In this document: positions 11,398 through 47,658 of the stretch, in pieces
Layout of the letters: each line of letters opens with the position of its first letter
Position numbering within the stretch: position 1 is the first letter of the stretch
Assembly: GCA_017483805.1 (NCBI GenBank)
Contig: JAFUUL010000049.1
Location: forward strand, 1 to 53,156
Direction of reading: 5' to 3'
DNA: 53,156 nucleotides
Origin: Prevotella sp.
Lineage (GTDB): Bacteria; Bacteroidota; Bacteroidia; Bacteroidales; Bacteroidaceae
The notes under the pieces: generated by a model
Seen by the model: only the letters and a program-made list of their open reading frames with translations
What the model was told of the DNA's origin: nothing
Databases searched by the model: none
Program-made: the position numbers and the translations under genes

Positions 11398-11400
11398 TGG

Positions 11401-11438: not shown

Positions 11439-11450
11439 ACTGAAGTGTGT

Positions 11451-31823: not shown

Positions 31824-33371
31824 TCACTTCCAGTCTGGCCCGACGCTGCGCTGGGGCAGGCTGCTGTTCAGCGGGTTGGGGTCGAACCAGTTCTTGGCGC
31901 CAGACTGGTCGGCCAGGTTGATAGTGCCGAGGTTCTCTGTCGGGTGACAGATGATGCAACCAGCGAGATAGAACTCGCGATCGAACGAGAACAGGGTCGA
32001 CGTGGCGTTGTTGGCATAGAAGCGGCAGTCATAGAACGTGACATTCGAGCCGCTGCTCTCTACGAGCGTGTACTCGCGGTTGTGGTGGAAGTCGCACTGC
32101 TCGAACTTGGCAAACTCGACGTTCTCCAGGGTCATGATGCCGTAGGTGCAGTCGTGGATGAGGGAGCGGTACATCGAGAAGTCACGCGTACCTTTCAACT
32201 GCAAGCCGTAGGTGCCGCAGCCGTAGAGGTTGCAGCCGTGCAGGTTGATGCGCCAGCCACCCTCTACACCGATGACACCGCCCTGGCAGTGGCCGCCCGT
32301 GGTGTGGCCAAAGGTCAGGTTGCGTATCTCGATCTGTTCGCAGCCCATGAACTTGATGCAGAAGGCATAGCGGGGCTCGACCACGATACGGGAGTCGCCC
32401 TCGCCACGTATGAGCATCCGCTTGTAGTTTTGGACTACGAGTTGGCGTCCGTCAAACACCTCCTCGCTGGTGATACGCTGTCCCATGTCGCTGAGGCTGG
32501 GTTGCCCCTCGCTGCACCATTTGAAGTTGTAGTTCTGCTTGTTCCACCATGCCTTGTCGTTGAGCAGCGGCGTGAGGTTGATTTCGGTGTCCTTGGCCAC
32601 CAGGATATTGCAGCCCGAGATGATGGAATGCAGGAACTGCTCAGCCGTATGCACGCGGATGTACTGTTCGCCGTCGTACTGGATGACGGTGCCGTCAGGC
32701 TCCGTCTCTTCAGGCCCGCGACCGTCGTCGGCCAGGCCGCCGGGGAACATATCGGGAGTGACATCGGCCGTTTGTTCTGAGTGGTCGAACACGGGGCGCA
32801 TACCGTTCCAGTTGAAGTGATGCGTCACTTGCTCCTGACTGTCGAAGATAAGCAACTCCTTGCCTACTTTTGGCAGTTGGAAACCGTAGCCGCCCCGTTC
32901 CGTGCGGGCCAGCCAGTCGCCAATGGCCTTGGGCTCAGGGGTGAGCGTATGCTTCTGGGGGTCGTAGTCGTAGAAGCAGATGATCTCTATCTCAGGGTCT
33001 ACGGGCTGACCGATGACCACGGCGAAGAGCCGGTGCCCATTAGAGCGACGCCACACGCAGGTCGACATATACTGGCGGTCGCTGCCGCCATTGTAGCATT
33101 CGGCATAGCCGTTCTTGGCATCCACCTCCACGGTGTAGTCGTCGTCTGGGTCGAGCACTTTCTTGCTCACACCCAGTTGCATCACCTGGCAGATATCGCC
33201 GCCGGCAGAAGTGGGCCACGTCATGTCGAAGCGTTCCAGCATGATGGCCAGTCCGCCTGTCGGTACATCGTTGATCACCTTCGTCTTCCACTTCTCTTTG
33301 ATGGTCTCAAGATCCGTCGCCCCTGCCATCATCGGTACTATCAGGGCCAAGGCCAAAATGAGTTTCTTCAT
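31824..33371 (-). CDS. Secreted right-handed beta-helix protein
   Basis: About 515 residues with a signal peptide (MKKLILALALIVPMMAGAT). Upstream in-frame ATGs exist at 33377 and 33383; MKKL at 33371 is chosen. The N-terminal third has no recognisable fold (WKTKVINDVPTGG, ICQVMQLGVSKKVLD). Residues from about 245 show a parallel beta-helix pattern with repeated N-L-x-F-x-H and C-x-L-x-G-x-G-x-Y-G-L-x-L turns (GVEGGWRINLHGCNLYGCGT). Such folds are common in polysaccharide-active or surface proteins, but no catalytic triad can be read. It is the last gene of the seven-gene lipoprotein operon. Confidence 0.75.
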   Translation of the reverse strand: MKKLILALALIVPMMAGATDLETIKEKWKTKVINDVPTGGLAIMLERFDMTWPTSAGGDICQVMQLGVSKKVLDPDDDYTVEVDAKNGYAECYNGGSDRQYMSTCVWRRSNGHRLFAVVIGQPVDPEIEIICFYDYDPQKHTLTPEPKAIGDWLARTERGGYGFQLPKVGKELLIFDSQEQVTHHFNWNGMRPVFDHSEQTADVTPDMFPGGLADDGRGPEETEPDGTVIQYDGEQYIRVHTAEQFLHSIISGCNILVAKDTEINLTPLLNDKAWWNKQNYNFKWCSEGQPSLSDMGQRITSEEVFDGRQLVVQNYKRMLIRGEGDSRIVVEPRYAFCIKFMGCEQIEIRNLTFGHTTGGHCQGGVIGVEGGWRINLHGCNLYGCGTYGLQLKGTRDFSMYRSLIHDCTYGIMTLENVEFAKFEQCDFHHNREYTLVESSGSNVTFYDCRFYANNATSTLFSFDREFYLAGCIICHPTENLGTINLADQSGAKNWFDPNPLNSSLPQRSVGPDWK

Positions 33372-33384
33372 CGTCATGGTCACG

Positions 33385-34770
33385 TTATTCGTTCGTTTTC
33401 TTGGCTTTGGCAGCCAACTCCTTCAGTTTGTCCTTGCCCTTGAAGGCGAATACCCAGATGAGGAAGCCGGCCAGCACCAGCAGGCTGATGCCCAGCAGCG
33501 GACGGTAGAACAGCCAGGCCACGGCAATGACGATGAGCGACCATACGAAGCCCAGCACGGTGCAGACCAGTCTGACGCCCCAGCCAAAGATGTCGGCAAC
33601 GAACGGCACCACCTTGAGGATGGCCTCGATAAAGCCGAAGATGCCCTTCAGGCCGCCAATCACCAGCAGTATGCCGATGATGCGCAGAGCCCAGAGCCAC
33701 ATCGAGTTGGCGTCCTTCTCTGATTCGATAATCTCGTCGCCGCTCTTCTTGCCCATCACGAGGGTCTGGAAGCGCTTGCCGTTCTTGGCCTTGTAGGGCT
33801 TGAAGGAGTCGCCTTCCACGACGGCCATCACCGTCACCTTGGCGGGCACCACCTTCTCGAAGGTGATGCGTACGTCGCCTACCTCAGGCGCACCAGGCAC
33901 ACGGCCGAAATAGAGAATGTTGTTGGCCACGTGTACATACTCCAGGTCTTTCTTGTTCTCAGCATTCTCCATCGCCTTGTTGATGCTGTCGTTCACTGCC
34001 TGCAGCGAGTCGATCGCAGCCTTGGCAGAGTCGGAGAGCAATGCCAAAACAGAGTCGGGGATGGCCGCCTGTTGTACGGGCTGCTGAGTGGTCTGCTGAG
34101 CCGGTTCCTGAACACCATAGAAGCGCTCGTAGGCCGTCTGGGCATTCTTGTCGAACTGCTTCAGCAAGTCCTCGTCGAGCGTCAGGTCCATACCCTCGCG
34201 TGAGGAGATGCTGTGTATCAGGCCCTCCGTCAGTTGATAGGCACCCCACGATACGTTCTCTGCCCACTGCTCTGCATCCTCATAAGATGTCAGCACCATG
34301 TTCTTGTTCTGGTAGGCTGCATCCTTAAACTGGCTCGACTCCATCGGGCTGCCCACCCACTCCTTGGTGTAGGTGTAGGTCGTGGTGGTCACTTCCTTGC
34401 CGCCAAACTTGTCTTCCTTCTTCTCCTGCTTGTGCTCCACCCACTGGTAGTACTCCACGGTACGGCGGATAGAGATGGCCTTGGCACCGATGCCGAACTG
34501 GTCGTCGGTCAGCGAGTCCTCAGTGGTGGCCATTGCCGTTCCGCAGATCAGTTCTCCCTCTAGCGAGGCATCCTTCTTGTTGGGGTTCTCCATCTCAACG
34601 TATGCACTGCCGGCCTCGTCGAGCATCTTCTCAGTCTTCACGGCGCGACCTTCGTTCCACCACAGCAGTACGGTGCCGATGAGGAACATCAGGATGCCAC
34701 CGCCGATTGCTTTAAATGAGTTTCCTACCCGGGTTCCGTATCCCGTTGTTTTCGTTTCTTGATAAGCCAT
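33385..34770 (-). CDS. TMEM43/LUMA-family membrane protein
   Basis: 461 residues. One membrane helix at about 19-38 (AIGGGILMFLIGTVLLWW) followed by NEGRAVKTEKMLDEA, a signature of the TMEM43 family known also from animal nuclear-envelope proteins. A large extracytoplasmic domain follows, with RRTVEYYQWVEHKQEKKED and TYTYTKEW typical of the family. Four further helices lie at about 335-450, ending in a basic tail. It sits between a lipoprotein and the beta-helix gene in one operon. Bacterial roles are unknown; inner membrane is the likely location. Confidence 0.85.
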   Translation of the reverse strand: MAYQETKTTGYGTRVGNSFKAIGGGILMFLIGTVLLWWNEGRAVKTEKMLDEAGSAYVEMENPNKKDASLEGELICGTAMATTEDSLTDDQFGIGAKAISIRRTVEYYQWVEHKQEKKEDKFGGKEVTTTTYTYTKEWVGSPMESSQFKDAAYQNKNMVLTSYEDAEQWAENVSWGAYQLTEGLIHSISSREGMDLTLDEDLLKQFDKNAQTAYERFYGVQEPAQQTTQQPVQQAAIPDSVLALLSDSAKAAIDSLQAVNDSINKAMENAENKKDLEYVHVANNILYFGRVPGAPEVGDVRITFEKVVPAKVTVMAVVEGDSFKPYKAKNGKRFQTLVMGKKSGDEIIESEKDANSMWLWALRIIGILLVIGGLKGIFGFIEAILKVVPFVADIFGWGVRLVCTVLGFVWSLIVIAVAWLFYRPLLGISLLVLAGFLIWVFAFKGKDKLKELAAKAKKTNE

Positions 34771-34808: not shown

Positions 34809-35900
34809 CTATTCGGTGGTAATGTAGAGCCAATCCGGTTCAAAATTGGAGGAGAAGCCCAGTTGCTGGAACAGTCTCTCGCCTTCTTCTGTGGAAATGT
34901 CACCTTTCTCCGATTCCCACTGGTCATCCGATAGGTTGCCTTCGGGGTCGAACTCTTCGTGGTGGCTGAATACGTTGACACTTTGGCTGTCCTTGATGAG
35001 CACAAAGCGTGACTGCCTGCATCCCGTGCCGCAGCCGCCGATGCTGCCCACGCCATGCTCATAGAATTCCAATGTGCTGTTCCCTTCGGCGTAGGCCAGC
35101 CACTTGGCATGGCCGTTGGCAATGGAGAAGACCACAATGGCCTCCAGGTCGGGACAGCGTACCAGCACTTCCGGCGTACCGTCGCGGTCGATGTCAAACA
35201 GGCTATAGTCACCGATGAGTATGCCGGCCTCTGGGTCAAGCAGGTCGCGTGCCTGCTTGTTCATGTCGGCGTAATAATCGTGGATGTCGAACTTGTCGCC
35301 AAAGTAGAACTTCTTGAGGTCAATGTAGTGGTGCATCTCGGCCAGCATATTGCGAGAGTCCTTAAGTATGGCTTTGACGCGCCACTGGTCGCCTTGCAGC
35401 ATCAGGTCCCAGCCCACCTCTTGGGCTTCTTTGCCTTCGCCGCTCAGCATAAAGTCAACGTGGGCTCTGCCGTCCGTGCGGATGGCCTTCACGTCGATGT
35501 CACTGACCTCGACCGGCCCCTCGTATTCCATTGTCCAGTATGAGTATACGTCAGGGAATATGGCATCCCAGAATCCCTGCTCGCCTTCACGTCCTTCGTC
35601 CGCTTTGTCGACGGCGGCGACGGCCTCCTGCCAATCCTTGGTGGCGAACCGCTGGTCGGTATCGTTGTCACGACCGGAGTAGCCTCCCTCGACATGATAT
35701 TGGTTGATATACTCAAAGATGGCCTCTACCTGTGCCGTGATGGCATCCTTGACGGCAGCGGTATCGGTGATGGCTGCGGGTTGGCTGGCAGCCACAGAGT
35801 CTGCAGCCAGTGAGTCGGCATCGGTCGCAGTGTTCTTGGCTTTGTTGCCGCAGGCAGTCAGCATCATGGCTGCGGCGGCGAGAATCATCAGTTTCTTCAT
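34809..35900 (-). CDS. Lipoprotein with NTF2-like (DUF3828-like) domain
   Basis: 363 residues. Lipobox LTACG with the lipidated Cys at residue 17 and a following linker rich in Ala/Asp/Ser (ADSLAADSVAAS). Residues 50-190 (an NTF2/DUF3828-like alpha-beta fold ending MLQGDQWRVKAIL) are followed by a second region with a DIDRDGTPEVLVR loop (about 235-250), resembling integrin-type or VCBS calcium loops. No catalytic motif. Member of a set of four lipoproteins with similar leaders in this operon. Confidence 0.75.
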   Translation of the reverse strand: MKKLMILAAAAMMLTACGNKAKNTATDADSLAADSVAASQPAAITDTAAVKDAITAQVEAIFEYINQYHVEGGYSGRDNDTDQRFATKDWQEAVAAVDKADEGREGEQGFWDAIFPDVYSYWTMEYEGPVEVSDIDVKAIRTDGRAHVDFMLSGEGKEAQEVGWDLMLQGDQWRVKAILKDSRNMLAEMHHYIDLKKFYFGDKFDIHDYYADMNKQARDLLDPEAGILIGDYSLFDIDRDGTPEVLVRCPDLEAIVVFSIANGHAKWLAYAEGNSTLEFYEHGVGSIGGCGTGCRQSRFVLIKDSQSVNVFSHHEEFDPEGNLSDDQWESEKGDISTEEGERLFQQLGFSSNFEPDWLYITTE

Positions 35901-35909
35901 ACGGTGGGT

Positions 35910-36428
35910 TTAATAGTTTCGGTTCATCAGTTTGTCAAATGCTTCCTTCAGGTCGGTGGCCAGACGCAGGGCGAATACGTCGTCCATCTGGCGCTGGCCC
36001 TTGACGATTTCGTGGACGAGGCCGCTCGATGCGTAATAGTAGCGCGTCTCGTCGGCATTCATCTTCTCGAAGAAGAATGTCGTATTGCCGTCCTTGTCGA
36101 AGAGAAACTCCTGATAGAATTTGTTGGCAGCGACATTAGACTGGCGGGTGATGAGGTAAGGCTGGTAGACGACTGTCTCCACTTCCTCCTCGTACCGTCC
36201 ATTATAATAATAATGTATCGTCTCGTTGGTCGGTCCGCAGCCAGGCATCTGGTAACTGTTCGTTACCGTCAGTATGTAGCCGGGCTGTCCTTCCTTCTGC
36301 AGCCGCTCGGCATCAGCCACATGCTGCTTCGCCTCGGCATACTGCTTGCGGATCTGTGCCACTTGGGCGTTCTGGGCCTGTGCCAGTAATGGCAGCAGCA
36401 GGGCCATCACTAAAAGTAGTCTCTTCAT
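35910..36428 (-). CDS. Exported protein of unknown function
   Basis: 172 residues with a clear signal peptide (MKRLLLVMALLLPLLAQAQ). The mature part starts with a charged helix (AQVAQIRKQYAEAKQHVADAERL), then a strand-rich domain containing GYILTVTNSYQMPGCGP and DGNTTFFFEKMN. No lipobox. The start codon overlaps the stop of the upstream lipoprotein gene by ATGA, indicating translational coupling. Family not recognised. Confidence 0.65.
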   Translation of the reverse strand: MKRLLLVMALLLPLLAQAQNAQVAQIRKQYAEAKQHVADAERLQKEGQPGYILTVTNSYQMPGCGPTNETIHYYYNGRYEEEVETVVYQPYLITRQSNVAANKFYQEFLFDKDGNTTFFFEKMNADETRYYYASSGLVHEIVKGQRQMDDVFALRLATDLKEAFDKLMNRNY

Positions 36429-37099
36429 ACGGGTGCTCCTTCGGTGGGTTCTTCGTCATCCTCCAGGGGGATGTCGTTCTCGCGGGCGTAGGTCTCCATC
36501 ATGTTCAGGTAGCCTCCCTTGCCAAAGGCCTCGGGGGCGTCGAAGTTGTTCACGCGCCAGCGGCCGTTCTCCATCCAGAGTTCCAGTATCATGAAGTTGT
36601 GGCCCTCCTGCTCATCGGCAAATTTCGGGTCGATCTTGAACTTCACGCGGGCCCGGGCCTCGTTGCCGGCCAGCAGGTCGGCCTCGAGCATCACAATCTC
36701 TAAGGGCGCTCCTACGCCCACCATCCAGCGGTAGCCACCCTCGTCGCCCATGAAGCGCATGTCGCCCTGGGCATTCTCGTCGTGACGGGCAATGTTACGC
36801 TTCAGGCCGAGGTAGTAGCCGGTGCAGAACTCCTCGTCCAACTGGTTGAAGTCGACGTAGGCCGCCGTCTCGTTCAGACGGTCGTACATCTGGCGCACGT
36901 GCTGCTTCACGGCCTCTTCCGTCCATAGGTCGGCGGGGGCAGCCTCCACGCCGTCGGTCTGAGCGGCCAGTTGTTCGTCTGCCGTGGAGATGGTGTCGCT
37001 ACTCAGCGCGTCGGTGTTTTCCGACTCGCTATTGTTGGTCTTGTTGCCGCAGGCTGCCAGCGTGAGGGCTGCTGCAGCGAGAATCATGAGTTTCTTCAT
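36425..37099 (-). CDS. Lipoprotein with DUF3828-like domain
   Basis: 224 residues. Lipobox LAACG (MKKLMILAAAALTLAACGNK) and an acidic/Ser linker. The domain from about 60 to 200 (VKQHVRQMYDRLNE, YYLGLKRNI, a strand pair, LELWMENGRWRVNNF) has the order of NTF2-like/DUF3828 proteins and parallels the lipoprotein at 34809-35900. The ORF extends upstream of 37099 but overlaps the neighbouring gene, so MKKL is the start. Unknown function. Confidence 0.75.
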   Translation of the reverse strand: MKKLMILAAAALTLAACGNKTNNSESENTDALSSDTISTADEQLAAQTDGVEAAPADLWTEEAVKQHVRQMYDRLNETAAYVDFNQLDEEFCTGYYLGLKRNIARHDENAQGDMRFMGDEGGYRWMVGVGAPLEIVMLEADLLAGNEARARVKFKIDPKFADEQEGHNFMILELWMENGRWRVNNFDAPEAFGKGGYLNMMETYARENDIPLEDDEEPTEGAPV

Positions 37100-37122
37100 A
37101 ATGGTTTGTTTGTTGTTTATTG

Positions 37123-38634
37123 TCATTGCTCTATGTCGCTGAAGAAAGCGTTTATCTGCTCTCCCTGGGGTGTCTGGTCGAGATAGGCCTGTGCCTCTTC
37201 CTTGGTGATGTCCTTGTCGTTGAGGCCAGCCTCTTCTATCTCGCCGTAGTCCTTCAGCACGTTGAGGCGCCAGAGGCGTTTGCCGTCTTTGAAGGCATGA
37301 ATCTCCTCCTGCCACGACGAACCGCCGGCAGAACCCGATAACTTGAGATAGCCGATGTCGTCCTTCTTGCACATCAGTGGACTCCGCCGCGGATTCTCGA
37401 TGGCAATGAGCGTCAGTTTGCCGTCCTTGCGCAGGAAGAAGGCCCCGTTCTTGTCATCTTTGTCGCGTAGCCAGATCCATTCGTTGGCGTAGTCGATGGG
37501 TACGTGGGCCCACTTGACCAGTTTCACGTCGCTATCTCCCATCTCGTCGGCATGATAAAGGCTGTCCATCTCAGCGAGGTCTCTCTTCCATACGGGTCTC
37601 GCCTCGTCTACCAAGTTATGATAGCACTCATATTCATGCTCTATCAGTTTGCCATTGCGCAGGTAGAACATACCCACCGTGCTGCTCTCAGGCGCACTGC
37701 GATAATAGCAGAGTTCCAGCCCATTGGGACCTTCAAAGGCTGCCTGGGGATAGCAACCGGTATACCGTCCATCGTCATCGACATTCCAACAGTAGTCCGT
37801 CTCAGAAAACATATCGCCGATTTGCTCGTTCACATAGACCTTGTCGCCCTGTATGAGCACGTCGAGTGCCAGTACATGTTTACGGTCGTCGCCTGCCTCT
37901 TGCCCCGTTTGGCGGGAGTTCCCTTTATACTCGCCTTCAAACTGCAACAATCCATATTGGTAAGTGTCGCCGATGTTGCACGACAGTTCAGAACGCGATG
38001 CTGTCATGCCATAACGCTCTTCCAACTGCTTGACAACGGCAGCAGGCAGAGGGTCTTCCTCGCCCCATTCGTACTCGAAATACTTGATGGGCAGATGCTT
38101 GCGCGACTGGAGGTAGGCATCGGTGACAATGACCGTTCCCCACTCATAGCCGCCATACTCTGATTCCTTTTTGTCAGAGGGGTTGACAAAATCGAAGCGG
38201 GCGCAGAGCGAAGGAATCTCTATCCGCCCGTGTATCACGCCGATACTTGGGGTGTCGCCATCGGGATCCTTCAGCACCTCGTCGATGAACTTGATCTTGA
38301 CGAACCGATCGCCCATGAGCATGTTGGTATACTGTTCCTTGTTGCGGCGGAACATCTCCTGCAAGGCCCATCGCCGGTGTTCCTCCTCGAAGTATTCGGG
38401 ATATTCCTCGTTCCTCTGAGGCTCTTCCAGTTTCGACCAGTAGGGCATCAGCCCATACTGGGCATCTATACTCATGATGAACATTGGCGGGGGTGTGGTG
38501 TCGTCCTCCTCGATGATGCTGTCGAGGACGGCTTCTGGCGAATCCTTGCCGTCGCCGGCATTTGCCGTTCCATTGTTCTTGCAACTGATCATTACTGCCA
38601 TCGCGCAGACGGCCACAAACGTAAGTTTCTTCAT
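37123..38634 (-). CDS. Large lipoprotein of unknown function
   Basis: 503 residues. Lipobox ISCK (MKKLTFVAVCAMAVMISC). The mature chain has an acidic linker and a long alpha-beta body without recognised domain. Visible features: YGLMPYWSKLEEPQRNEEYP near residue 60, a strand block with GGYEWGTVIVTDAYL, an EYECYHNLVDEARPVWKRD helix, and C-terminal WLRDKDDKNGAFFLRKDGKL. Cys pairs are few. Co-transcribed with its neighbours (gaps of 12 and 23 bases). Confidence 0.7.
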   Translation of the reverse strand: MKKLTFVAVCAMAVMISCKNNGTANAGDGKDSPEAVLDSIIEEDDTTPPPMFIMSIDAQYGLMPYWSKLEEPQRNEEYPEYFEEEHRRWALQEMFRRNKEQYTNMLMGDRFVKIKFIDEVLKDPDGDTPSIGVIHGRIEIPSLCARFDFVNPSDKKESEYGGYEWGTVIVTDAYLQSRKHLPIKYFEYEWGEEDPLPAAVVKQLEERYGMTASRSELSCNIGDTYQYGLLQFEGEYKGNSRQTGQEAGDDRKHVLALDVLIQGDKVYVNEQIGDMFSETDYCWNVDDDGRYTGCYPQAAFEGPNGLELCYYRSAPESSTVGMFYLRNGKLIEHEYECYHNLVDEARPVWKRDLAEMDSLYHADEMGDSDVKLVKWAHVPIDYANEWIWLRDKDDKNGAFFLRKDGKLTLIAIENPRRSPLMCKKDDIGYLKLSGSAGGSSWQEEIHAFKDGKRLWRLNVLKDYGEIEEAGLNDKDITKEEAQAYLDQTPQGEQINAFFSDIEQ

Positions 38635-38646: not shown

Positions 38647-39573
38647 TTAATCACGATACTTGAAGTAGCCCTTGCGGAGGGTGATGGGGCCATCGTATGC
38701 CTCGCTGGCCTGCGGGTGGACAATATGGCAGGTGCCTGTCAGGTCGCCCTGTTCGTCCAGATGCACGTAAAGACTGAAGGCCCTGACGGTCTTCATCGCG
38801 TTATCGTCGTATTCGTTTTCCGTCACGGAAAGTTGCTCGCCATCGAAGGTGACGGCTGTCTTGTCGAAGCCGTACATACGGTAGACATCACACTGGCCCG
38901 CCTTCAGACCGTTGTCCGTCATCTTCAGGTTGAGCATCAGTTCAGGACCATCATCGCCCACCCAGCCCCATTCGCCAACGAGGACCTTGGCCTTCTCGCG
39001 GGCCATAAGGCCATCGCTGATGATGCTGCGGAAATAAGCTTTATCAGAGCCTTCAGAATCCTCTGGGCCGAAATCGTCGATATACCAGTTGTCACGTTCG
39101 AAGAGCAGCGAGAGTGTTAAGTCATTCTTGTTGCCGAAGTCGATGACTATGATATCTGCCAAGGCTGTCGAATCGGTGATGTTGTACACCTTGTGAATCT
39201 GATAGTTCCAGTCCTTGGAAAAGTCCTGTCCGTATATCCAGTGGTCGGCGTCGAAGACGACGTCACCCGTCTCGTTGGCGAAATCGAATGCCTGCCTCAT
39301 CAGGCTGTAGTAGCGCGACGAGCAATAGGCGCTGTCGGGATTGAAGCCTGAGTCCATATACGGATGGCAGTCATCCGTCTCGCCAGCCACTCTCTGTCTG
39401 ATGTCGCTATAGATGGTGTCGAGCCGTTGGCGGATGTAAGTCTCACAGTGTTTGTCGATGTTTGCGTCGGCAATCGAGTCGGTGGGCAGCGAATCTGCTT
39501 CACTGACGGCTTTGTCTGTCTTTTGGCCGCATGCCGTGAGCACGATGGCTAAAGCAAGAATCAGTTTCTTCAT
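38647..39573 (-). CDS. Lipoprotein with DUF3828-like domain, first gene of the operon
   Basis: 308 residues. Lipobox LTACG and leader CGQKTDKAVSEADSLPTDSIA, closely matching the leader of the 34809-35900 lipoprotein. Residues 40-175 (CETYIRQRLDTIYSDIRQR, YCSSRYYSLMRQAFDFANE, LSLLFERDNWYIDDFGPE) match the DUF3828 layout. Residues 190-308 form a second strand-rich domain (LVGEWGWVGDDGPELMLNLK), similar to lipocalin-like DUF domains that report matrix or oxidised ligand binding; this is a weak guess. Lies behind an operator-bearing promoter (39608-39670). Confidence 0.75.
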   Translation of the reverse strand: MKKLILALAIVLTACGQKTDKAVSEADSLPTDSIADANIDKHCETYIRQRLDTIYSDIRQRVAGETDDCHPYMDSGFNPDSAYCSSRYYSLMRQAFDFANETGDVVFDADHWIYGQDFSKDWNYQIHKVYNITDSTALADIIVIDFGNKNDLTLSLLFERDNWYIDDFGPEDSEGSDKAYFRSIISDGLMAREKAKVLVGEWGWVGDDGPELMLNLKMTDNGLKAGQCDVYRMYGFDKTAVTFDGEQLSVTENEYDDNAMKTVRAFSLYVHLDEQGDLTGTCHIVHPQASEAYDGPITLRKGYFKYRD

Positions 39574-39607: not shown

Positions 39608-39670
39608 CAAAGTTACGAAAAAAAAGACGAACCGCCGTTATCATTTCGTCAATTTCTCTTGTCATTTCAT
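39608..39670 (-). promoter_or_regulatory. Activator-type promoter with direct-repeat operators (operon 39573-31824)
   Basis: -7 box TAACTTTG at 39608-39615 on the minus strand; no TTTG at the -33 position. Two 12-base direct repeats, TTATCATTTCGT (39638-39649) and TTGTCATTTCAT (39659-39670), are 21 bases apart and begin 22 bases beyond the -7 box. Identical layout to 42690-42752. Confidence 0.75.
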
Positions 39671-39730
39671 GAAAAACACCTATTGCAAGACAGAGTTGCA
39701 TTCAGTGGGCCGCGCCCGTGTGCGTTAGTC

Positions 39731-40336
39731 CTAAGTCGATGACCACGTCTGACCGATGTCCCAGTGGTTTGCTTTTTGGACAATGGTCTTGTCACGAGGC
39801 AGGTCAAACTCTTCGTAAATAAGGTCGATTGCCTCAGGACTATTATCTATCCACGAACCAACGGCAATGATGAACTGGTCATTGGCAGGTGAATAAAAAA
39901 CCCTGCCACGTGGCTTCATTTGGTATTCGCCCTTGAAGGGACCGATGCCGCCATTGTGGTATTTCTGACGGCGGAACTCCTTCTTCCACACGTCTTCGTG
40001 CATCTCGCTACAGGTAATCAGACCGCCACCAGCATTTGGCTTCAGGTAGTCTGTACGCTTATGTGTGACCACGCCGAATAGTTCCTTCAGCGTAGCGTTA
40101 TACCAGAAAATTCCTACTTTTGGCTCATCGCCGGCACCTCGGTTGCGAGCCATCACGTTCATTGCCTCGTCGAGTTGTTCCTTGCTGAACTCGCCGACTG
40201 CTACACCTGTGGTTGGCGTCTCAGTCTGATTCTCCACCACCTCGATATTCTCGATTTTCTTAATGGCGTTGGTAACGGCATCGCTGACGATGTCGTTCAG
40301 TTGTTCCAATGAAAGCGTAAATATCTTGTCTGCCAT
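39731..40336 (-). CDS. Uncharacterised conserved protein, paralogue of 4118-4579
   Basis: 201 residues, soluble, no signal peptide. An extra N-terminal region of about 90 residues (helical, LSLEQLNDIVSDAVTNAIKK, then a linker) precedes the conserved core shared with 4118-4579: VGIFWYN, EDVWKKEF, FKGEYQMKPRGRVF, VGSWIDN, EEFDLP and HWDIGQTW. The core is reminiscent of small single-domain modules with unknown activity. The gene has its own promoter with a palindromic operator, separate from the lipoprotein operons on each side. Confidence 0.7.
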   Translation of the reverse strand: MADKIFTLSLEQLNDIVSDAVTNAIKKIENIEVVENQTETPTTGVAVGEFSKEQLDEAMNVMARNRGAGDEPKVGIFWYNATLKELFGVVTHKRTDYLKPNAGGGLITCSEMHEDVWKKEFRRQKYHNGGIGPFKGEYQMKPRGRVFYSPANDQFIIAVGSWIDNSPEAIDLIYEEFDLPRDKTIVQKANHWDIGQTWSST

Positions 40337-40358
40337 AATCCACCTGTTTTTACGTTTG

Positions 40359-40390
40359 CAAAAGTACGATATTTATTTGGATTATCCAAA
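40359..40390 (-). promoter_or_regulatory. Promoter with palindromic operator before 39731-40336
   Basis: TTTG (40387-40390), 20-base spacer, TACTTTTG (40359-40366) on the minus strand. The perfect palindrome TTTGGATTATCCAAA (40376-40390) covers the -33 box and half of the spacer, as expected for a repressor site. Confidence 0.7.
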
Positions 40391-40473
40391 CAAATCGAAG
40401 ATTTTTGGTGTTCTGCCGAATGGAAAAATGTTCGTGGCTCTGTGTGATGAAAGACCTCTGTTGGTATGAAGCC

Positions 40474-40500
40474 TGGGGATGCCCACCAAAGGCATCCCCA
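40474..40500 (-). terminator. Hairpin after the lipoprotein gene at 40527
   Basis: Perfect 10-base stem TGGGGATGCC/GGCATCCCCA with a 7-base loop, 27 bases after the gene end. It lacks a clear U run, so it may protect the transcript end or terminate weakly. Confidence 0.5.
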
Positions 40501-40526
40501 AAGCAAATTTTCATGAATATAGTTTG

Positions 40527-41174
40527 TTATTCCGCTATCCATGATTCTCCGACAGACTGGATGTTGCCGTCCTTCTGCCAGTAGTGGGCTGAGTAGACGC
40601 GTGTCTGGCCGTCGCGGGCGATGTAGTGGCCCAGTATGCGCTGCTCCTCGCGGTCGACCTCGGGATTGCAAATCTGGCGGAAGGTGCCTTGGCAGTAGAA
40701 CTTGCCGCTGTCAGGATCGTAGACCCATGCATCGTAGCGTACAAACGTCTGGTCGCTGACGGGCTCCCGTCCCAAACAGATCATCACATCGGTTCGCCCG
40801 TCGAAGTTTACGTCAGTCTGCCATACGTTGCCAAAGGTTTCCAGCATATCCTGGGGATAGTCATAGCCCGTTCGCTCGCCAACCGTCATGGTCTTGCCCT
40901 CGCTGTTGCGGATAATCACCTCGTACTTTGGCTCGCTGTCCAGGTCGAAGGTGCGTACGCTGACGTCCCACTCCTCCACATTCGTCGGGTCATCCGTTGG
41001 CTCCTCCTCCACTTCGACTGTCTCGGCGGTTACCACGTTGGCCGAGTCGGCTGCTGCCTGGATCTCTACTGCAGGGCTGTCGCTGTCAGCGTCAGCCTTG
41101 GCCGTCTTGTTGCCGCACGCTACGAGTGCAGCGGCAGCAGTTGCGATTGCGAAGTTAAATAGTACTTTCTTCAT
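40527..41174 (-). CDS. Lipoprotein with XAC2610-like domain
   Basis: 215 residues. Lipobox LVACG (MKKVLFNFAIATAAAALVAC) and a long acidic linker. The C-terminal half (WQTDVNFDGRTDVMICLG, YDPDSGKFYCQGTFRQICNP, EEQRILGHY) follows the pattern of XAC2610-related proteins: a D-x-N-x-D-G-x-x-D calcium-like loop, then an F-x-x-x-x-x-I-x-N-P segment. Starts 10 bases after the 41185-42447 gene. Third gene of the operon driven from 42690-42752. Confidence 0.78.
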   Translation of the reverse strand: MKKVLFNFAIATAAAALVACGNKTAKADADSDSPAVEIQAAADSANVVTAETVEVEEEPTDDPTNVEEWDVSVRTFDLDSEPKYEVIIRNSEGKTMTVGERTGYDYPQDMLETFGNVWQTDVNFDGRTDVMICLGREPVSDQTFVRYDAWVYDPDSGKFYCQGTFRQICNPEVDREEQRILGHYIARDGQTRVYSAHYWQKDGNIQSVGESWIAE

Positions 41175-41184
41175 TCCTCTTTGG

Positions 41185-42447
41185 TTATTTCTTGGCAAAC
41201 ATCAGGAAGGCCCAAGCGGCTACGAGGTTGGGGTTGGCATCGGCATTCACCAGTCCGACCTGATTCCCCGCTGCGTCCACCAGTTTGTGGTTGTATGTCT
41301 GATCCTTCGAAGAGAAGGCTGTTCCCTTGAACGTACCCTTCACCACGCGGCCCACCGTCTTGCCAGCAGCATTGGTTACTACGCCGGCGCTGCTGACTGC
41401 GCCAAGTTTAGCGCCCTTCAGGTTGTAGACTACGCCGTTCACGTACTTGCCCACACGGTCGCGGCTGCTGTCTACCAGCCAGTCCCACGTCGGGTCGTAG
41501 CCGAACACCTTCACATCGTCCAGTCGGCACCAGTAGATGCCGTTGTCTTCGGCTCCAAACTTGTTCTGCAGGAACACGTAGTAGTCGCGCGGGTCCATTT
41601 CCTGCTTGATGTTCGGGTCGATTATCGACTGCTTGGAGTCCATCTTGAAAGCGCGGCGTCCAAAGGCTGCCTGCTCGTCGTTCTCCTTGTCAATGCGCTT
41701 AGCGTTCTTGGCGGCCACGTCCAGCGTGCTCGTGTCGTAAGGCAACAGTCCCCATACGATGAAAGCCGTCAGTGCCTTATCCATCGGCTCCGTTGTGACA
41801 TAGGTTGTGCCCGGATACACCGTAGCCGTCGTATCGTTCTCTATCACGCCTACCTCCGTGCCGTTCACATACACCTTGTTGTCCTTCAACTGAAACTTGG
41901 CGCCCTTGGGGTTGACCATCTCACCTGAGGCGCTGATGTTGCCTGCCAACTCGCCCTGGCTGCTTACTATCGTGCCGTCAGCCTTCAGTTGGTAGGACAC
42001 ATTCGAGTCGCGGCTCGACATGAATACTTTTGTCGTCTTATTATACTTTCCCTTCAGCCGGTAGCCCACTTCGTCCTTGCGGTCGATGATGTAGACCACG
42101 CCAGCCGGTGGTGTCGGATTCTCCTGTTGGGCCTGCTCAGCCTGCTCGCGTGCAAGTCTTTCATTGTTCTGGCGAATAAATTCGTACTCTGAGCCGTCGT
42201 TTGTCGAACCCTGTGTCTGCTGTTGCTGCGTCTGGCTGTCGTTGGCGGGCACTTGCTGTTGCACCGTCGTCGTCGCGTTGTTCTTCGCGTTGTCCACCTT
42301 CTCCTCAACCTTCTCCTTGACAGCCTTCTTTGCCTTGCCGACAAGTCCTTTAATATTACCAAACTGGGCGTAGGCCAGGTTGCTGCCCCCCATAAACAGG
42401 AGGCTTGCGGCCAAAACGACCTTCAGAATTTGTTGATTTTTCTTCAT
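41185..42447 (-). CDS. Exported repeat protein
   Basis: 420 residues with a signal peptide (LKVVLAASLLFMGGSNLAYAQ). Residues 30-110 are low complexity: a Lys/Glu/Val helix (GKAKKAVKEKVEEKVDNAK) then Gln/Thr-rich linkers. Residues 130-220 and 330-375 contain strand-turn units such as YQLKADGTIVSSQGELAGNI and VYNLKGAKLGAVSSAGVV that look like short beta-propeller or MORN-like repeats (x-G-x-I/V-x-N/S-x-x-G). Function unknown; periplasmic or outer-membrane-associated. Confidence 0.7.
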   Translation of the reverse strand: MKKNQQILKVVLAASLLFMGGSNLAYAQFGNIKGLVGKAKKAVKEKVEEKVDNAKNNATTTVQQQVPANDSQTQQQQTQGSTNDGSEYEFIRQNNERLAREQAEQAQQENPTPPAGVVYIIDRKDEVGYRLKGKYNKTTKVFMSSRDSNVSYQLKADGTIVSSQGELAGNISASGEMVNPKGAKFQLKDNKVYVNGTEVGVIENDTTATVYPGTTYVTTEPMDKALTAFIVWGLLPYDTSTLDVAAKNAKRIDKENDEQAAFGRRAFKMDSKQSIIDPNIKQEMDPRDYYVFLQNKFGAEDNGIYWCRLDDVKVFGYDPTWDWLVDSSRDRVGKYVNGVVYNLKGAKLGAVSSAGVVTNAAGKTVGRVVKGTFKGTAFSSKDQTYNHKLVDAAGNQVGLVNADANPNLVAAWAFLMFAKK

Positions 42448-42480
42448 TTGCTTAAAGTTTTAAAGTTCGATGGTTAGGGT

Positions 42481-42672
42481 TTATGGTTTAGTATTGTCGT
42501 TGTCCGATTCTGTCTCTTGCTCCCTCTTCAGGTAGGTCTGGAATCTCTTCTCCACCATGCGGTCGATACGCTCGTTGACGTTATTTCCCAGCATATCCTC
42601 CATGTCGAGCAGCCGTTCGAGGTAGTCCTTGGCATACTCCATTGCCGATTCCTGATATTTGGTCTTTGCCAT
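42481..42672 (-). CDS. 63-residue helical protein, first gene of operon
   Basis: Small soluble protein starting MAKTKYQESAMEYAKDYLER and continuing as a charged helix with a basic-acidic pattern. No signal peptide, no membrane segment. The longer frame from 42747 would run through the operator and -7 box, so 42672 is the start. It lies directly behind the operator-bearing promoter. Unknown function; a cytosolic regulatory peptide is one idea. Confidence 0.6.
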   Translation of the reverse strand: MAKTKYQESAMEYAKDYLERLLDMEDMLGNNVNERIDRMVEKRFQTYLKREQETESDNDNTKP

Positions 42673-42689
42673 GATTGATTTTTCGGTGG

Positions 42690-42752
42690 CAAAGTTACAA
42701 TTATTCGGACGAAACGCTGTTATCATTTCGTCAAGTAATCTTATCATTTCGT
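42690..42752 (-). promoter_or_regulatory. Activator-type promoter with direct-repeat operators (operon 42672-40527)
   Basis: -7 box TAACTTTG (42690-42697, minus strand) without a -33 box. Two exact 12-base repeats TTATCATTTCGT at 42720-42731 and 42741-42752, spaced 21 bases, starting 22 bases beyond the -7 box. Layout is identical to 39608-39670. Confidence 0.78.
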
Positions 42753-42784
42753 TTAAAAGATAAGAAAAAGCGGTTAATTATGCA

Positions 42785-44342
42785 TTAATCTGCCGCTTTT
42801 TCCTGTTTCTCCAGATATTGCGTGGGGGTGAGCCCGAAGGTTCGCTTGAAGGCGCGGGTGAAGTTGGGCGTGTCGTTGTAGGCGCAAAGTGCGGCAATCT
42901 CTGACACGTTCATCTCGGGATGCTTGTCCAGCAGATGGCGGGCGCGGCGCATGCGGACGGTCTGGATGAAGGCCTGCGGCGTCTCGTCGGTGATGGCCGT
43001 CAGTCGCTGGCGGAACTGGAAGAGGCTCATGCCCATGCGCTCTGCCACGTGGTTGGCGTCGATCTGTCCTGAGAGTATCAGCAGGTTGACGGTGTTGATG
43101 GTCTTCTCCAGGAAGTCGCGGTCGGCGGCGGTCAGTTCCTCAGGCTCCTCCTGCTTGTTGGTCGAGATGGCATTGTCGTAGTGCTCGTTCAGCGTGTCGT
43201 AGCGCTCGCTCAGTTCCTTGATGCGCTCCGACAACTCGGCATTGATGCGCTGCTGCTGGTGGTGACGGCGGCGCATGAAGAGCCAGATGCCCACGGCCAG
43301 CACGACGGCAGCGATGGCGGCCAGGATGGCCCACGTCTTGGCGCGGCGCTGCTCGTGGTTCTCAAGGTTGCAGCCAGTCGTTGCCGAACTCAGCATTGTA
43401 TTTGGCCAGCCGCTCGGCCGACGTGTTGCTGTAGATGGAGTCCTTCAGGTCGTTGAAGCGGTCCAGTTGCTTCTTGGCCTCGTCGGGGTTCTGCTTCCAG
43501 AGGCTCTCGTAGAGTCCGCGGCGGGCGTGCACCTCATTGTAGGGGTCGCCCAGGTTCGTGAAGATGTCGGCCGCCTCCTGATAGTAGGCTATGGCCTCCC
43601 CCTCGCGCTGCTGTGAGAGCAGGGCCATGCCCATCTTGTTGCAGGCTATGCCCAGCGACTGGCGGTCGGGCGTCTGGCGCAGGAAGGGGATCACCTCCCT
43701 CAGCACCTGTTCCGCCTGAGCGTAGTCGTGCAGGCCTATCAGGACGGAGGCCTTCTGGGCCAGTCGCACCATAGCGCGCGGCTCGTTGCCCAGCGACTTG
43801 TCTATCTCGTAGGCCCGCTCGATGTAGGGTAGGGCCTTCTGGTCGTTGCCCAGGGCGTGGTACACCTCGGAGGCCATAGCCTGCAGGATGGCCATGCGGC
43901 CGGGGTTGTCGGCCTGCTCTGCCATCTCGATGCCCCTCAGCACGTACTGCTCGGCCTCCTCGGGCTGGTGGGCGCCCATGTAGATGCCGGCCAGCGTGTT
44001 CAGGCTCGACGACATCAGGTCGGGGTCGCCAGTCTGCTCGTCGAGTGCAAAGCACTGCTTGGCATACAGTGCGGCCTCGTCGTAGTCGCCCAGGCGGACG
44101 TTGATGATGGCCAGCAGGTTCAGGCAGTCGGATTCCAAGTCCGTGCCCGTGCAGAGTGGCAGTGCCTCGTGGGCGGCAGTCAGCGCTTCTTTGTAGTGCT
44201 GGACGCCATACAGGCTGTCGGCTTTGTCCACGAGTAGGGTTCCCTGCTGCTCGTCGGCTGCCGTTGCGCTGTAGCAGCAAGCGATGAGCAGCATGGTTAG
44301 CCAGAGTCGCATCGTGATGGTTCTGAATGTCATTGTGGTCAT
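42785..44342 (-). pseudogene. TPR-membrane-AraC regulator, frameshifted
   Basis: One regulator gene read in two frames. Frame one (44342 to 43362): signal/anchor segment (LWLTMLLIACCYSATA), then TPR repeats (e.g. ALTAAHEALPLCTG, DYDEAALYAKQCFALD, NTLAGIYMGAHQPEEAEQY) to about residue 320. Frame two (to 42785): membrane helix TWAILAAIAAVVLAVGIWLF, coiled linker, then an AraC helix-turn-helix (VAERMGMSLFQFRQRL, VSEIAALCAYNDTPNFTRAF). One extra base near 43366-43367 (GG in AAGG) restores a continuous NDWLQ-LENHEQ if removed. In related Bacteroidales proteins these parts form one chain. As written it gives two products overlapping by 35 bases. It lies next to the two operator-bearing operons and is the best candidate for their regulator. 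Confidence 0.8.
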
Positions 44343-44352
44343 AATTTGGTTG

Positions 44353-44412
44353 CAAAGATACAAAATAATTATAAATTTTAAATTATGAATTATGAATTAT
44401 TTCGTATCTTTG
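44353..44412. promoter_or_regulatory. Divergent promoter region, regulator / symporter
   Basis: Minus-strand TATCTTTG at 44353-44360 (for the regulator) and plus-strand TATCTTTG at 44405-44412 (for the symporter). The interval is AT-rich, with repeated AATTATGAATTATG units (44372-44400). The symporter ATG at 44421 sits only about 8 bases beyond the -7 box, so its mRNA would be nearly leaderless. Confidence 0.6.
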
Positions 44413-44420: not shown

Positions 44421-45852
44421 ATGGTGATTATAGTAGTAGTTTTGGCATATTTCGCCCTGCTGTTGGCCTTCAGCAGGTGGACAGGCAGGCGGGCCACCAA
44501 CGAGACCTTCTTCCGTGCCGAACGGCGGTCGCCGTGGTCTCTGGTGGCCTTCGGCATGGTGGGGGCGAGCATCTCGGGCGTCACCTTCGTCAGCGTGCCG
44601 GGCATGGTGCTGTCGTCGCAGATGACCTACCTGCAGGTGTGCCTGGGCTTCATCGTGGGCTATTTGGCCGTGGCCTTCGTGCTGCTGCCGGTCTACTACC
44701 GGCTGAACCTCACCTCCATCTACACCTATCTGGGGCAGCGGCTGGGGCGGCAGTCCTACAAGACGGGCTCCTGGTTCTTCCTGCTGTCGAAGATGGTGGG
44801 GGCGGCGGTGAAGTTCTATGTGGTGTGCATCATCCTGCAGCAGTTTGTGCTCGACGCCATGGGCATCCCCTTCGCCGCGACCGTGGTGGTGATGGTGGCG
44901 CTCATCTGGCTCTACACCCGGCGGGGCGGCGTGCGCACGCTGGTCTATACCGACACCCTTCAGACGCTTTGTCTCTTCTCGGCGCTCCTCCTTATTATAT
45001 ATATGGTGATGCGGCAGATGAACTTCTCGCTCAGCGAGGCCGTCAGTGCCATCGTCGGTGACGAGCGGAGCCGCATCTTCGTCATGGACGACTGGGCCTC
45101 GCCGCACAATTTCTGGAAGCAGTTCCTGAGCGGTGCGTTCATCGTGGTGGTGATGACGGGGCTGGACCAGGACATGATGCAGAAGAACCTGACCTGCCGC
45201 ACGCTGCGCGAGGCGCAGAAGGATATGTGCTCCTATGGCGTGGCCTTCGTGCCGGCCAACCTGCTCTTCCTCTCCCTGGGCGTGCTGCTGGCGCAACTCT
45301 TTGAGAGTCAGGGCGTGGCGTTGCCCGCCAAGGGCGACGAACTGCTGACCCAGTATGTGGCGGCCGCCGACTCATCACTCATCACTGATAGAAGTGCTTT
45401 TCACGATAGGCATCGTGGCCGCCTCGTTCTCATCGGCCGACTCGGCCCTGACCTCGCTGACCACCAGTTTCTGTGTGGACATCTGCAACCGGCCCGCCGA
45501 CGAGCGGCTGCGCAAGCGGGCCCATCTGGGCATCTGTCTGCTCTTCGTGGTCTTCATCCTGCTGTTCGATGCCGTCAACAGCAAGTCGCTCATCGACGCC
45601 ATCTATACGATTGTGTCCTATACCTACGGCCCGCTGCTGGGCCTGTTTGCCTTCGGCCTGTTCACCAGGCGGCGGGTGCGCGATCGGCTGGTGCCCATCG
45701 TCTGCATCGCCTCCCCGTTCATCTGCTACGCCGTCGACAGCCTGTCGCAGTCGGCGTGGGGCTACCGTTTCGGCTACGAACTGCTGATGCTCAACGGCCT
45801 GCTGACCTTCGCGGGGCTGTGGCTTACCTCGCGGCGTGAACCTGGTCGATGA
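44421..45852 (+). pseudogene. Sodium:solute symporter family protein, frameshifted
   Basis: SSS-family transporter of about 477 residues if the frame is repaired. The first frame (44421 to about 45370) begins MVIIVVVLAYFALLLAFSRW and holds the early helices with GMVGASISGVTFVSVPGMV, a family signature. After DELLTQYVAA the reading must shift one base to continue as SSLIEVLFTIGIVAASFSS, with SADSALTSLTTSFCVDI, to the stop at 45850-45852. The open frame starting at 44385 includes the promoter and is rejected. The shift lies in TCATCACTCATCACTGATA (45370-45390 region), a copy of the GTGATGA-type tandem repeat otherwise found between genes. Substrate unknown. The 3' end overlaps the opposing kinase gene by 29 bases. 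Confidence 0.75.
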
Positions 45853-47509
45853 ATTCGCTGGGCTGGATGCCAAACTCCTTCTTGAAGCAAGTCGCAAAAT
45901 ACTTGGGGTCCTTGAAGCCCACCTTGTAGGCCAGGTCGCTGACGCGGATGTCGCGTTGGGTCTCTGCCAGCCGCTTGGCCTCCTTCATGCGGATGTCGCG
46001 GATATAGGTAGAGACGTTCTGGCCCGTCAGTGCCCGCAGTTTGTTGTAGAGCGTCGAGGCCGAGGCCCCCATCTCCACGGCAAAGGCATCGCGGTCGAAC
46101 TCGCTGTCTGACAGGTGGTTCATCACGCAGGTGTAGGCTTTCTGCAGAAACTCCTCGTCGGGCGTCAGGGGGCGGGCTTCCGCCGCATCCGCCGCAGCCT
46201 GCCGCTGTTCGCCCAGGATGCGCTTGCGGTTCTCTATGATGTTGTCGATGCGCAACTTCAGGTCGCTCAACCGGAAGGGCTTGGTCACATAGTCGTCGGC
46301 ACCAATCAGCATGGAGTGCTTGCGGTCTTCCTCTGCCGTCTTGGCCGAAACGAGGATCACGGGCAGGTGGCTCAACTCCGGCGTGCCCTTGATGTGGCGG
46401 GTCAGTTCGTTGCCGTCCATCTCCGGCATCATCACGTCGGCCACGATGATGTCCAGGTCCTCCTTGTTGATCACCTCCAGGGCCTCGAGGCCGTTGGCAG
46501 CCGTCAGCACGTTGTACTTGTAACTGAGCAGCGTCTTCATCAGCATCAGCAGTTCCTCGTTGTCCTCCACCAGCAGGATGCTGTAGAGCGGCTTGGCGGG
46601 TTCCTTCTCTACCGGCTGGCTGGGGGGCGTGAGCATCTCCAGCGCGCTCACGTCGATGATGTTGGTGTGGGGCGTGGTGAGGTCGATGGGGTGCTTGGTG
46701 TCAATCTGTTGGGCGGAGAAGGCATCCTTGGTGATGGGGATGGTCACCGTGAACACCGTTCCCTGTCCCTCCTTGCTCTTGCAGTCGATGGTGCCGCCGT
46801 GCAGATAGGTCAGTTCGCGCGTCAGGGCCAGTCCCAGTCCTGTGCCGCTCACCTTCATGCGCCTGTAGTCGCCGTCGTAGAAGCGCTGGAACAGGTGCTT
46901 CATCTTGTGGGCAGGGATGCCGATGCCGTTGTCGCGTACCTCTATTATAATATGGTCGTAGTTCTCGTTGGTTTGGGCAACGAGGTCCACCTGTCCCGGC
47001 GTGCTGGTATATTTGGCCGCATTGGAGAGCAGGTTGTAGATGATCTTGTCCAACTTGTCGGGGTCGATCCAGCCCATCATCGACTTGGGGTTGCACTGCA
47101 CGTTGAACGTCAGCCCCTTCTTGCGCAGCAGCGGGGCGATGCTCAAGGCCGTCCGGCGGATGTACTCCATCGCGTCGCCCTGCGACACCAGCAACTTCAG
47201 GCCGCCCGACTGCGACTTGCTGGTCTCCAGGATCTCCTGCAGCAGGCGCGTCATGCGCTCCACGTTGAGTTCCATCATGGCATACTCGGCAGCATGGCTG
47301 GAGTCCTGCCCGTGGTCCTGGTCGCGCAGCCGCTCGATGGAGGCCGAGATGACGGTCAGTGGCGTCAGCAACTCGTGGGATATGTTGGTGAAAGCCCGGT
47401 CCATCTGCAGCCGGTTGCGGAGGCGGACACTGCGGTTGTAGAGCCATCGTCCCACGATGAGCAGAACCGCGAGGAGCAGAATGCCGACGATAATGACAGG
47501 TATCTTCAT
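45824..47509 (-). CDS. Hybrid histidine kinase-response regulator-AraC protein without large sensor
   Basis: 561 residues. One membrane helix (residues 4-20) followed directly by a histidine kinase: His45 in FTNISHELLTP, N-box NLLSNAAKYT, G-boxes DNGIGIP and GTGLGLAL. A receiver domain follows (ILLVEDNEE, phospho-acceptor Asp358 in IIVADVMMPEMDG), then an AraC-type DNA-binding domain (about 450-561; VSDLAYKVGFKDPKYFATCFKKEFG). Classical hybrid two-component systems of Bacteroidetes carry a large periplasmic ligand domain before the kinase, and it is missing here. Signal input may come from a partner such as the neighbouring symporter. The start at 47509 (MKIPVIIVG) is chosen because upstream codons overlap promoter and operator sequence. 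Confidence 0.85.
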   Translation of the reverse strand: MKIPVIIVGILLLAVLLIVGRWLYNRSVRLRNRLQMDRAFTNISHELLTPLTVISASIERLRDQDHGQDSSHAAEYAMMELNVERMTRLLQEILETSKSQSGGLKLLVSQGDAMEYIRRTALSIAPLLRKKGLTFNVQCNPKSMMGWIDPDKLDKIIYNLLSNAAKYTSTPGQVDLVAQTNENYDHIIIEVRDNGIGIPAHKMKHLFQRFYDGDYRRMKVSGTGLGLALTRELTYLHGGTIDCKSKEGQGTVFTVTIPITKDAFSAQQIDTKHPIDLTTPHTNIIDVSALEMLTPPSQPVEKEPAKPLYSILLVEDNEELLMLMKTLLSYKYNVLTAANGLEALEVINKEDLDIIVADVMMPEMDGNELTRHIKGTPELSHLPVILVSAKTAEEDRKHSMLIGADDYVTKPFRLSDLKLRIDNIIENRKRILGEQRQAAADAAEARPLTPDEEFLQKAYTCVMNHLSDSEFDRDAFAVEMGASASTLYNKLRALTGQNVSTYIRDIRMKEAKRLAETQRDIRVSDLAYKVGFKDPKYFATCFKKEFGIQPSEFIDQVHAAR

Positions 47510-47528
47510 GACGGGCGTTAGTAGTTTT

Positions 47529-47658
47529 GGTTTGAAATTCGTGAGCGAAGTTACTACTTTTTTGTCTAATATGCAAATATTTGGCAGAAAAAGTGCGAAA
47601 AGGGGTTTAAAATTCGTGATATTTGGTTTAGAATGCGATAATTCGCGCATTTTAAACC
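47529..47658 (-). promoter_or_regulatory. Promoter and four operator copies of the hybrid regulator
   Basis: Minus-strand promoter TTTG (47574-47577), 20 bases, TAACTTCG (47546-47553). A 16-base motif of type GGTTTRAAATKCGTGA occurs at 47529-47544, 47604-47619, 47625-47640 (more divergent) and inverted at 47643-47658. Copy one overlaps the predicted start of transcription; the others lie upstream. Confidence 0.65.

Follow-up and report, generated by a model that had tools for sequence, protein, structure and literature searches.

The window analysed here comprises 53,156 nucleotides (nt), positions 1 to 53,156 of contig JAFUUL010000049.1, from the Prevotella sp. assembly GCA_017483805.1. On its minus strand, a putative operon of three genes (operon 1; 42672 to 40527) and one of seven (operon 2; 39573 to 31824) are preceded by promoters of the same architecture, in the order half-site, 9 nt, half-site, 22 nt and the -7 box TAACTTTG (Table 1). 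A sequence-only reading of the window had described two minus-strand promoters in which TAnnTTTG is separated by 22 bases from two 12-mers with a 21-base period, one pair exact and the other with two mismatches; the sequence and coordinates are as it gave them, and both gene runs were found as predicted open reading frames (ORFs). It had also placed next to the operators a gene for a regulator that combines tetratricopeptide repeats (TPRs), a membrane segment and an AraC-type DNA-binding domain. This gene is indeed present, but it is split between two frames in the assembly, a feature that the reading had missed: two overlapping ORFs, 43362-44363 (TPR) and 42785-43396 [transmembrane (TM) segment and helix-turn-helix (HTH)], are separated by a frameshift at 43362-43396, between the TPR and TM parts.

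Table 1. Predicted operators, promoters, operon genes and regulator gene in the window.
Feature	Coordinates	Strand	Remarks
Operator 1	42720..42752	minus	two exact ACGAAATGATAA copies, N9 between, period 21
-7 box, promoter 1	42690..42697	minus	TAACTTTG, 22 nt from operator 1
Operator 2	39638..39670	minus	ATGAAATGACAA-N9-ACGAAATGATAA, 2 mismatches
-7 box, promoter 2	39608..39615	minus	TAACTTTG, 22 nt from operator 2
Regulator, N-terminal part	43362..44342	minus	signal-peptide-like start, TPR sensor; frame ends before TM segment; TPR_12 6e-25
Regulator, C-terminal part	42785..43396	minus	another frame; TM segment, linker, AraC-type DNA-binding domain; HTH_18 3e-22
Operon 1, gene 1	42481..42672	minus	63-residue protein, probably helical; no clear Pfam/PDB relatives
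Operon 1, exported protein	41185..42447	minus	420 residues; 5-fold beta-flower-like C-terminus below Pfam cut-off
Operon 1, lipoprotein	40527..41174	minus	XAC2610-related domain
Operon 2, gene 1	38647..39573	minus	lipoprotein-like; no Pfam; weak match below cut-off
Operon 2, gene 2	37123..38634	minus	lipoprotein-like; cluster c7; match below cut-off
Operon 2, gene 3	36425..37372	minus	lipoprotein-like; likely start inside ORF; no Pfam
Operon 2, gene 4	35910..36428	minus	exported-looking 172-residue protein; no Pfam
Operon 2, gene 5	34809..35900	minus	lipoprotein-like; no Pfam; match below cut-off
Operon 2, gene 6	33385..34770	minus	TMEM43-family membrane protein; PF07787, 1e-64
Operon 2, gene 7	31824..33377	minus	exported right-handed beta-helix protein; PF13229, 7e-11

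At up to three mismatches, the window contains the repeat pair at two places and none of 100 dinucleotide shuffles contains it; with the -7 box added to the pattern, the same two sites are returned. Single half-sites at up to two mismatches are near chance level (five in the window, against a shuffle mean of 2.56 and at least five in 8 of 100 shuffles). The paired 12-mers are not scattered through the genome: in the 3.63 Mb of the whole assembly (3,626,307 bases in 199 contigs), no pair besides the two in the window was found at up to three mismatches, and a reversed-pattern control gave none.

The pairs are conserved in relatives, with a nearly fixed spacing to the -7 box. In a genus comparison set of 200 genomes, the Prevotella sp. 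genome itself included, the operator was matched at up to three mismatches in 25 and the reversed pattern in one; there are one to three sites per genome, a tandem array in one genome (G081) apart. Scanning GTDB genomes yielded 209 relatives, and the 80 best among them were kept as loci; their titles read Prevotella, Prevotellaceae or Bacteroidales, with a small number of other labels, and ruminant forestomach samples are named in many. From 1.82 Mb of loci, 96 distinct sites were collected at up to six mismatches. TAnnTTTG follows the pair at 22 nt in 68 of these, at 21 nt in four and at neither distance in 24, of which 11 have six mismatches, and all 21 perfect pairs have the box at 22 nt. 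The sequence between pair and box is poorly conserved. Base counts over the 68 sites indicate a half-site longer than 12 bases, of ~16 bp with the form TTT[G/C]ACGAAATGATAA, the proximal copy being slightly stricter. Promoters of Bacteroides are described as having TAnnTTTG at -7 and TTTG near -33 (in the part of PMC7366714 that bears on them); the latter, sought 17-23 nt before the -7 box, is carried by 0 of the 72 operator promoters, so that its lack extends beyond the window. A short inverted repeat, GACGAA..TTCGTC, unremarked in the sequence-only reading, lies inside both window operators and was considered as the operator in its own right; it was rejected, since only 7 of the 72 sites carry it.

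In relatives the regulator is a single protein of ~500-615 residues with an N-terminal hydrophobic segment, TPRs, a TM segment and an AraC-type domain. By hydropathy, orthologs have the layout of a membrane-bound one-component regulator, with the sensor joined through the TM segment to the DNA-binding domain in the one chain that is split in the window: all 69 orthologs examined have the TM segment, and 62 of the 69 also have the hydrophobic segment at the N-terminus. The C-terminal domain is a double HTH of the AraC/XylS type, as seen from the HTH_18 match in the window and from the alignment of orthologs. No kinase or receiver family is among the Pfam matches of the two window regulator pieces; among the 25 of 41 NCBIfam matches listed for the ortholog at locus L033, one is to a kinase family (FimS) and covers the sensor part only.

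An ortholog profile (A1) was built from 13 intact regulator copies. Regulators that did not differ in their last 350 residues were merged (168 to 111, near-identical ones remaining), and a cut at 700 bits, chosen by us, separated 71 orthologs from 37 paralogs. ORF work covered the loci other than L001-L030. Split regulator genes (window, L035 and L164) entered the adjacency and covariation counts by their C-terminal piece, and the alignment of recognition helices was made without L035 and L164.

Operator and regulator occur together. Within the genus set, with at most seven candidates scored per genome, A1 gave orthologs of at least 818 bits in 19 relatives and a next-best protein of 648 bits; the window copy scores 541 and 331 bits in its two pieces. 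An operator match was found in 20 of 20 genomes with an ortholog versus 5 of 180 without (Fisher P = 3e-23, a strength that is overstated by the kinship of the genomes). In one of the 20 (G150) the match is doubtful and lies on another contig, while a proper operator with more mismatches stands beside the ortholog; counting this genome as a miss gives 19 of 20 and P = 2e-20. Among 294 further genomes of the order, all from outside the genus set and with at most four candidates scored in each, none had the operator-plus-box pattern and no protein exceeded 667 bits. The operator adjoins 60 of the 71 orthologs (57 within 700 bp on the 3' side and three divergently on the 5' side), with the box present at 58 of the 60 sites, and a window-type operator lies within 700 bp of none of the 37 paralogs.

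The two recognition helices vary between regulator groups in the alignment of orthologs and paralogs, and this variation can be compared with the operator. Within the window clade, the motif N-F-x-R-A goes with A as base 9 of each half-site copy (57 of 57 regulators), and S-F-x-R-S goes with a proximal C and a distal T at this position (3 of 3); a fourth S-F-x-R-S regulator, L139, has the same bases. Because L138-L140 are near-identical, the S-F-x-R-S change amounts to two cases. In a tree from which the DNA-binding domain was left out, the change falls in two places, which requires two gains.

By these comparisons the adjacent TPR-membrane-AraC gene is well supported as the regulator of the operators, in agreement with the sequence-only reading. 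Very probably, the repeats are the binding sites of this neighbouring membrane protein, acting as a class II activator of a small, local regulon. The regulator would consist of a periplasmic TPR sensor, one TM segment and a cytoplasmic AraC-type DNA-binding domain in one chain, and two monomers would bind next to each other, on one face of the double helix and with an offset of two helical turns. At a promoter with a -7 box but without the -33 TTTG, the promoter-proximal monomer would then abut the -33 region and could recruit RNA polymerase by class II activation in the manner of XylS and the hybrid two-component systems (HTCSs). The activity of the regulator would be set by a periplasmic signal, and the regulon would usually comprise the adjoining operon, with no more than one or two others besides. 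Sequence comparison shows the predicted operator, its spacing, its tie to the regulator and its separation from the paralogs; we infer that the protein binds there, that it activates and does not repress, that it lies in the membrane as described in more than its hydropathy, and that it responds to a signal.

Some paralogs have other direct repeats that end ~20-22 nt before a TAnnTTTG box, a parallel that the sequence-only reading had missed. Repeats of GGCAGATTCTGCACAA (L191-L193), ATAAGATTTGGACAAC (L190) and GATTAAAAATGAATAC (L182 and L082) are located on the 3' side of the gene, each at 58-150 nt when measured to the box. A TTTTTGACAACC-like repeat lies 71 nt 3' of L162, with a similar one 1.3 kb 3' of L161, two GAGAAATTGTCAT-like sites lie divergently upstream of L186 and, by eye, TTGGAAGA..TTATCAAC-like repeats spaced by about three turns accompany L171, L172, L174 and L177, among others. 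At least six different half-sites were seen among the TPR-membrane-AraC regulators. Around the 108 regulators, 75 of 421 TAnnTTTG boxes have a period-21 repeat with at least 11 of 16 positions matching, versus 13 among 8,320 upstream stretches after shuffling. The window type accounts for 59 of the 75 and other types for 16, some of which are weak or reverse-strand readings. When 32 periods (14-45) were tried on the paralog flanks (45 boxes), period 21 was found at nine, 31-32 at five and 19 at one. Four proteins come from another family of the order; one of them (L239, genome G280) has a 32-bp pair matching at 11 of 14 positions, and the best value beside the 3' end of the gene for the other three is 8 of 14.

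A number of observations weigh against the neighbouring regulator as an activator acting through these repeats. Neither the regulator gene of the window, split as described, nor the ortholog of genome G006, with an in-frame stop, has an intact frame; the frame is open in the other 18 of the 19 relatives of the top profile group, the stop listed for G070 being the end of the gene. For the window, the broken frame implies either an assembly error or a switch that is dead or altered in this strain. Five genomes have an operator match without an ortholog. In G081 (L004/L027; C16:17509-17583 and other contigs) this is a tandem array of 21-base half-site-like units, ACGAAATGAAAATTCTGTCGG, without a promoter; the matches in G116 and G161 also lack a promoter; and well-formed operators with no ortholog found are present in G040 (C9:9291-9323) and G086 (C28:22643-22675), genomes of 80% and 94% completeness, respectively. 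As the promoter-less matches in G081, G116 and G161 and on contig 4 of G150 show, the three-mismatch threshold also picks up chance or unrelated repeats. Among the 71 orthologs, three have the operator elsewhere in the locus (divergently for L139, the open frame of which overlaps the site), four with ample 3' sequence (L118, L116, L070 and L071) have none in the examined locus and four are too close to a contig end to judge. The 700-bit cut is flanked by scores of 712 and 692. A single origin of the S-F-x-R-S change is compatible with the well-supported branches of the tree and is not firmly excluded. Finally, the design in which each regulator has a repeat of its own appears to hold for some paralogs and is not established as universal, because many paralogs lack a clear repeat.

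The alternative that survives best is a repressor or dual-action site, at which the TPR-AraC protein would hold the operons off until a signal arrives; AraC itself both represses and activates, and the sign of regulation is not readable from sequence. We nevertheless regard it as improbable: 22 nt separate the proximal half-site from the -7 box, so that its end falls at the -33 region of promoters none of which (0 of 72) has TTTG there, and activator-dependent promoters such as Pm with XylS are laid out in this way, to judge from the relevant part of PMC5481539. Less likely still is that the operators belong to another regulator, such as the product of the histidine kinase-receiver-AraC gene at 45824-47650. 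This gene lies ~3 kb from the operators and encodes an AraC-type domain, and operators of the HTCS type are 21-bp direct repeats in the portion of PMC3878776 concerned with them. In 24 relative loci, however, it was never the best window match of the ORFs shown within 6 kb of the operators, a position held by the TPR-AraC gene in 16 of 24, and it was rejected for this absence of co-conservation; a TPR-AraC ortholog is also present in 20 of the 25 operator-match genomes, and its recognition helix covaries with an operator base. That the pair is no regulatory site but a dispersed repeat, or the relic of a mobile element, which was copied along with the locus is hardly credible, since, against the similar units of the promoter-less array in G081, there are only two copies in the genome, the distance to the -7 box is nearly fixed across divergent loci despite a variable spacer, the operators stand beside regulators that are 45-90% identical to the first alignment row and the box accompanies 58 of the 60 regulator-adjacent sites.

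If the neighbouring protein is the activator, its targets can be listed from the genes behind the 72 operator-box sites, with ORFs of at least 45 residues used for clustering the cargo. Downstream genes are present at 69 sites, and at 64 of the 69 they include a protein with a signal peptide or lipobox by crude criteria, in keeping with the exported proteins and lipoproteins that the sequence-only reading had assigned to the window operons. A family of small proteins (45-97 residues, typically ~60) occurs in 32 of the 72 operons, that of the window included, and each of the 32 occurrences is the first gene behind the operator. The profile of this family also has matches behind paralog repeats or boxes at L168, L169, L171, L173 and L177 and, weakly, L172; matches at L154 and L187 lie 1.3 and 3.6 kb from the paralog and not behind a visible operator. 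The family has no consistent match in Pfam (the most frequent is PhyR_sigma2, in 4 of 29 members with a best E of 0.008; the lowest single E, 0.0007, is to an ARM-repeat family in one member) and none in the PDB up to an E of 1. The remaining cargo comprises lipoproteins, TMEM43 proteins, beta-helix proteins, giant BspA-type leucine-rich-repeat proteins and proteins with immunoglobulin-like and HEAT repeats. The cluster of the second gene of operon 2 (c7) also lies behind operators in relatives, and TMEM43-family proteins, best known from the animal nuclear envelope, recur behind the operators of 8 of the 72 operons. Pfam matches, taken for the window operons and for 10 representatives of the cargo clusters, include no SusC/SusD-type locus. 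The cargo varies between species, and no evidence was found for the envelope-stress role that had been suggested for these operons. A global envelope or stress regulon was rejected on the two sites in the genome; with one to three sites per genome, the system is a local switch. A link to defence was likewise rejected, PADLOC on 10 proteins having given a generic TPR match and a weak specificity-subunit match to 39731-40336 only.

Elsewhere in the window, a 17-base direct repeat, TTGTGTCATTTTGTCTG, with a 21-base period is located at 11399-11440, behind a sulfatase-like gene (9941-11365); a short AAGTGAT tandem array precedes it and, by eye, no TAnnTTTG box adjoins it. The intergenic stretch 8541-8620 contains short direct and inverted repeats around GGAGTTTGAAGCCTCCAAAC.

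A broader proposal can be made tentatively, with somewhat less than even confidence. TPR-membrane-AraC proteins may constitute an undescribed Bacteroidales class of plug-in surface switches, each with a private tandem half-site that evolves next to the regulator gene. They would share a nearly constant docking distance of ~22 nt to the -7 box and a spacing of two or three turns, with the operon led by a ~60-residue partner that feeds back on the regulator and with interchangeable surface cargo behind it. The sequence-only reading had called the regulon not known. This holds for the TPR-membrane-AraC class, no study of which was found in open-licence PubMed Central (PMC) texts (weak evidence of absence), but not for the operator, as 21-bp AraC-type direct repeats have been predicted for Bacteroides HTCSs in the pertinent part of PMC3878776: the operator style is known, and the regulator class and regulon are new. 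The predicted operator code would make the target genes of a class of membrane regulators readable from sequence. The differing half-sites of the paralogs, together with a natural swap of residue and base, make DNA recognition by AraC-type proteins of the Bacteroidota directly testable, and the first gene behind the operator points to a small-protein family of an undescribed kind. The design could also yield a set of orthogonal, membrane-signalled promoters. To a specialist the operator assignment should be convincing and useful rather than startling; the paralog repeats and the small protein add interest.

Among known systems, the HTCSs of Bacteroides come close. In the section of Ravcheev et al. 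(2013; PMC3878776) on their AraC-type domains, direct repeats averaging 21 bp (12+9, 16+5 and 14+6) are predicted, and the AraC-type domain, the ~21-bp tandem repeats, the neighbouring targets and a motif similarity that tracks regulator phylogeny are all shared with the present system. In contrast to the HTCSs, the regulator here is one protein without kinase or receiver and with a TPR sensor, its targets are a small protein and exported cargo rather than polysaccharide loci, and some paralogs have a spacing of 31-32 bp. XylS at Pm uses two 15-bp direct repeats and recognition helices 3 and 6, and a title cited in the same source describes overlapping activator and polymerase sites (PMC5481539, in part). 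The likeness lies in a direct-repeat operator of ~21-bp period next to the -35/-33 region (22 nt from the box at 68 of 96 sites and 21 nt at four), whereas XylS senses benzoates through its own N-terminal domain, in place of the TPR and TM part and the TAnnTTTG promoter found here (PMC5481539, as above). The sensor region of an ortholog, over residues 24-386 of that protein, aligns with FimS of Porphyromonas gingivalis (NCBIfam NF053520; 7.5e-11), although with a score of 41 against a cut-off of 600, and FimS has a kinase output where the present regulator has an AraC domain. SusR, finally, is located in the membrane. It differs from the regulators described here in its predicted repeats, which are 67 or 77 bp apart rather than at a period of 21, and in a DNA-binding domain that, in the account of SusR in PMC3878776, resembles no other known one; it is like them in combining, in one protein, the periplasmic ligand sensing and operon activation that are proposed here.

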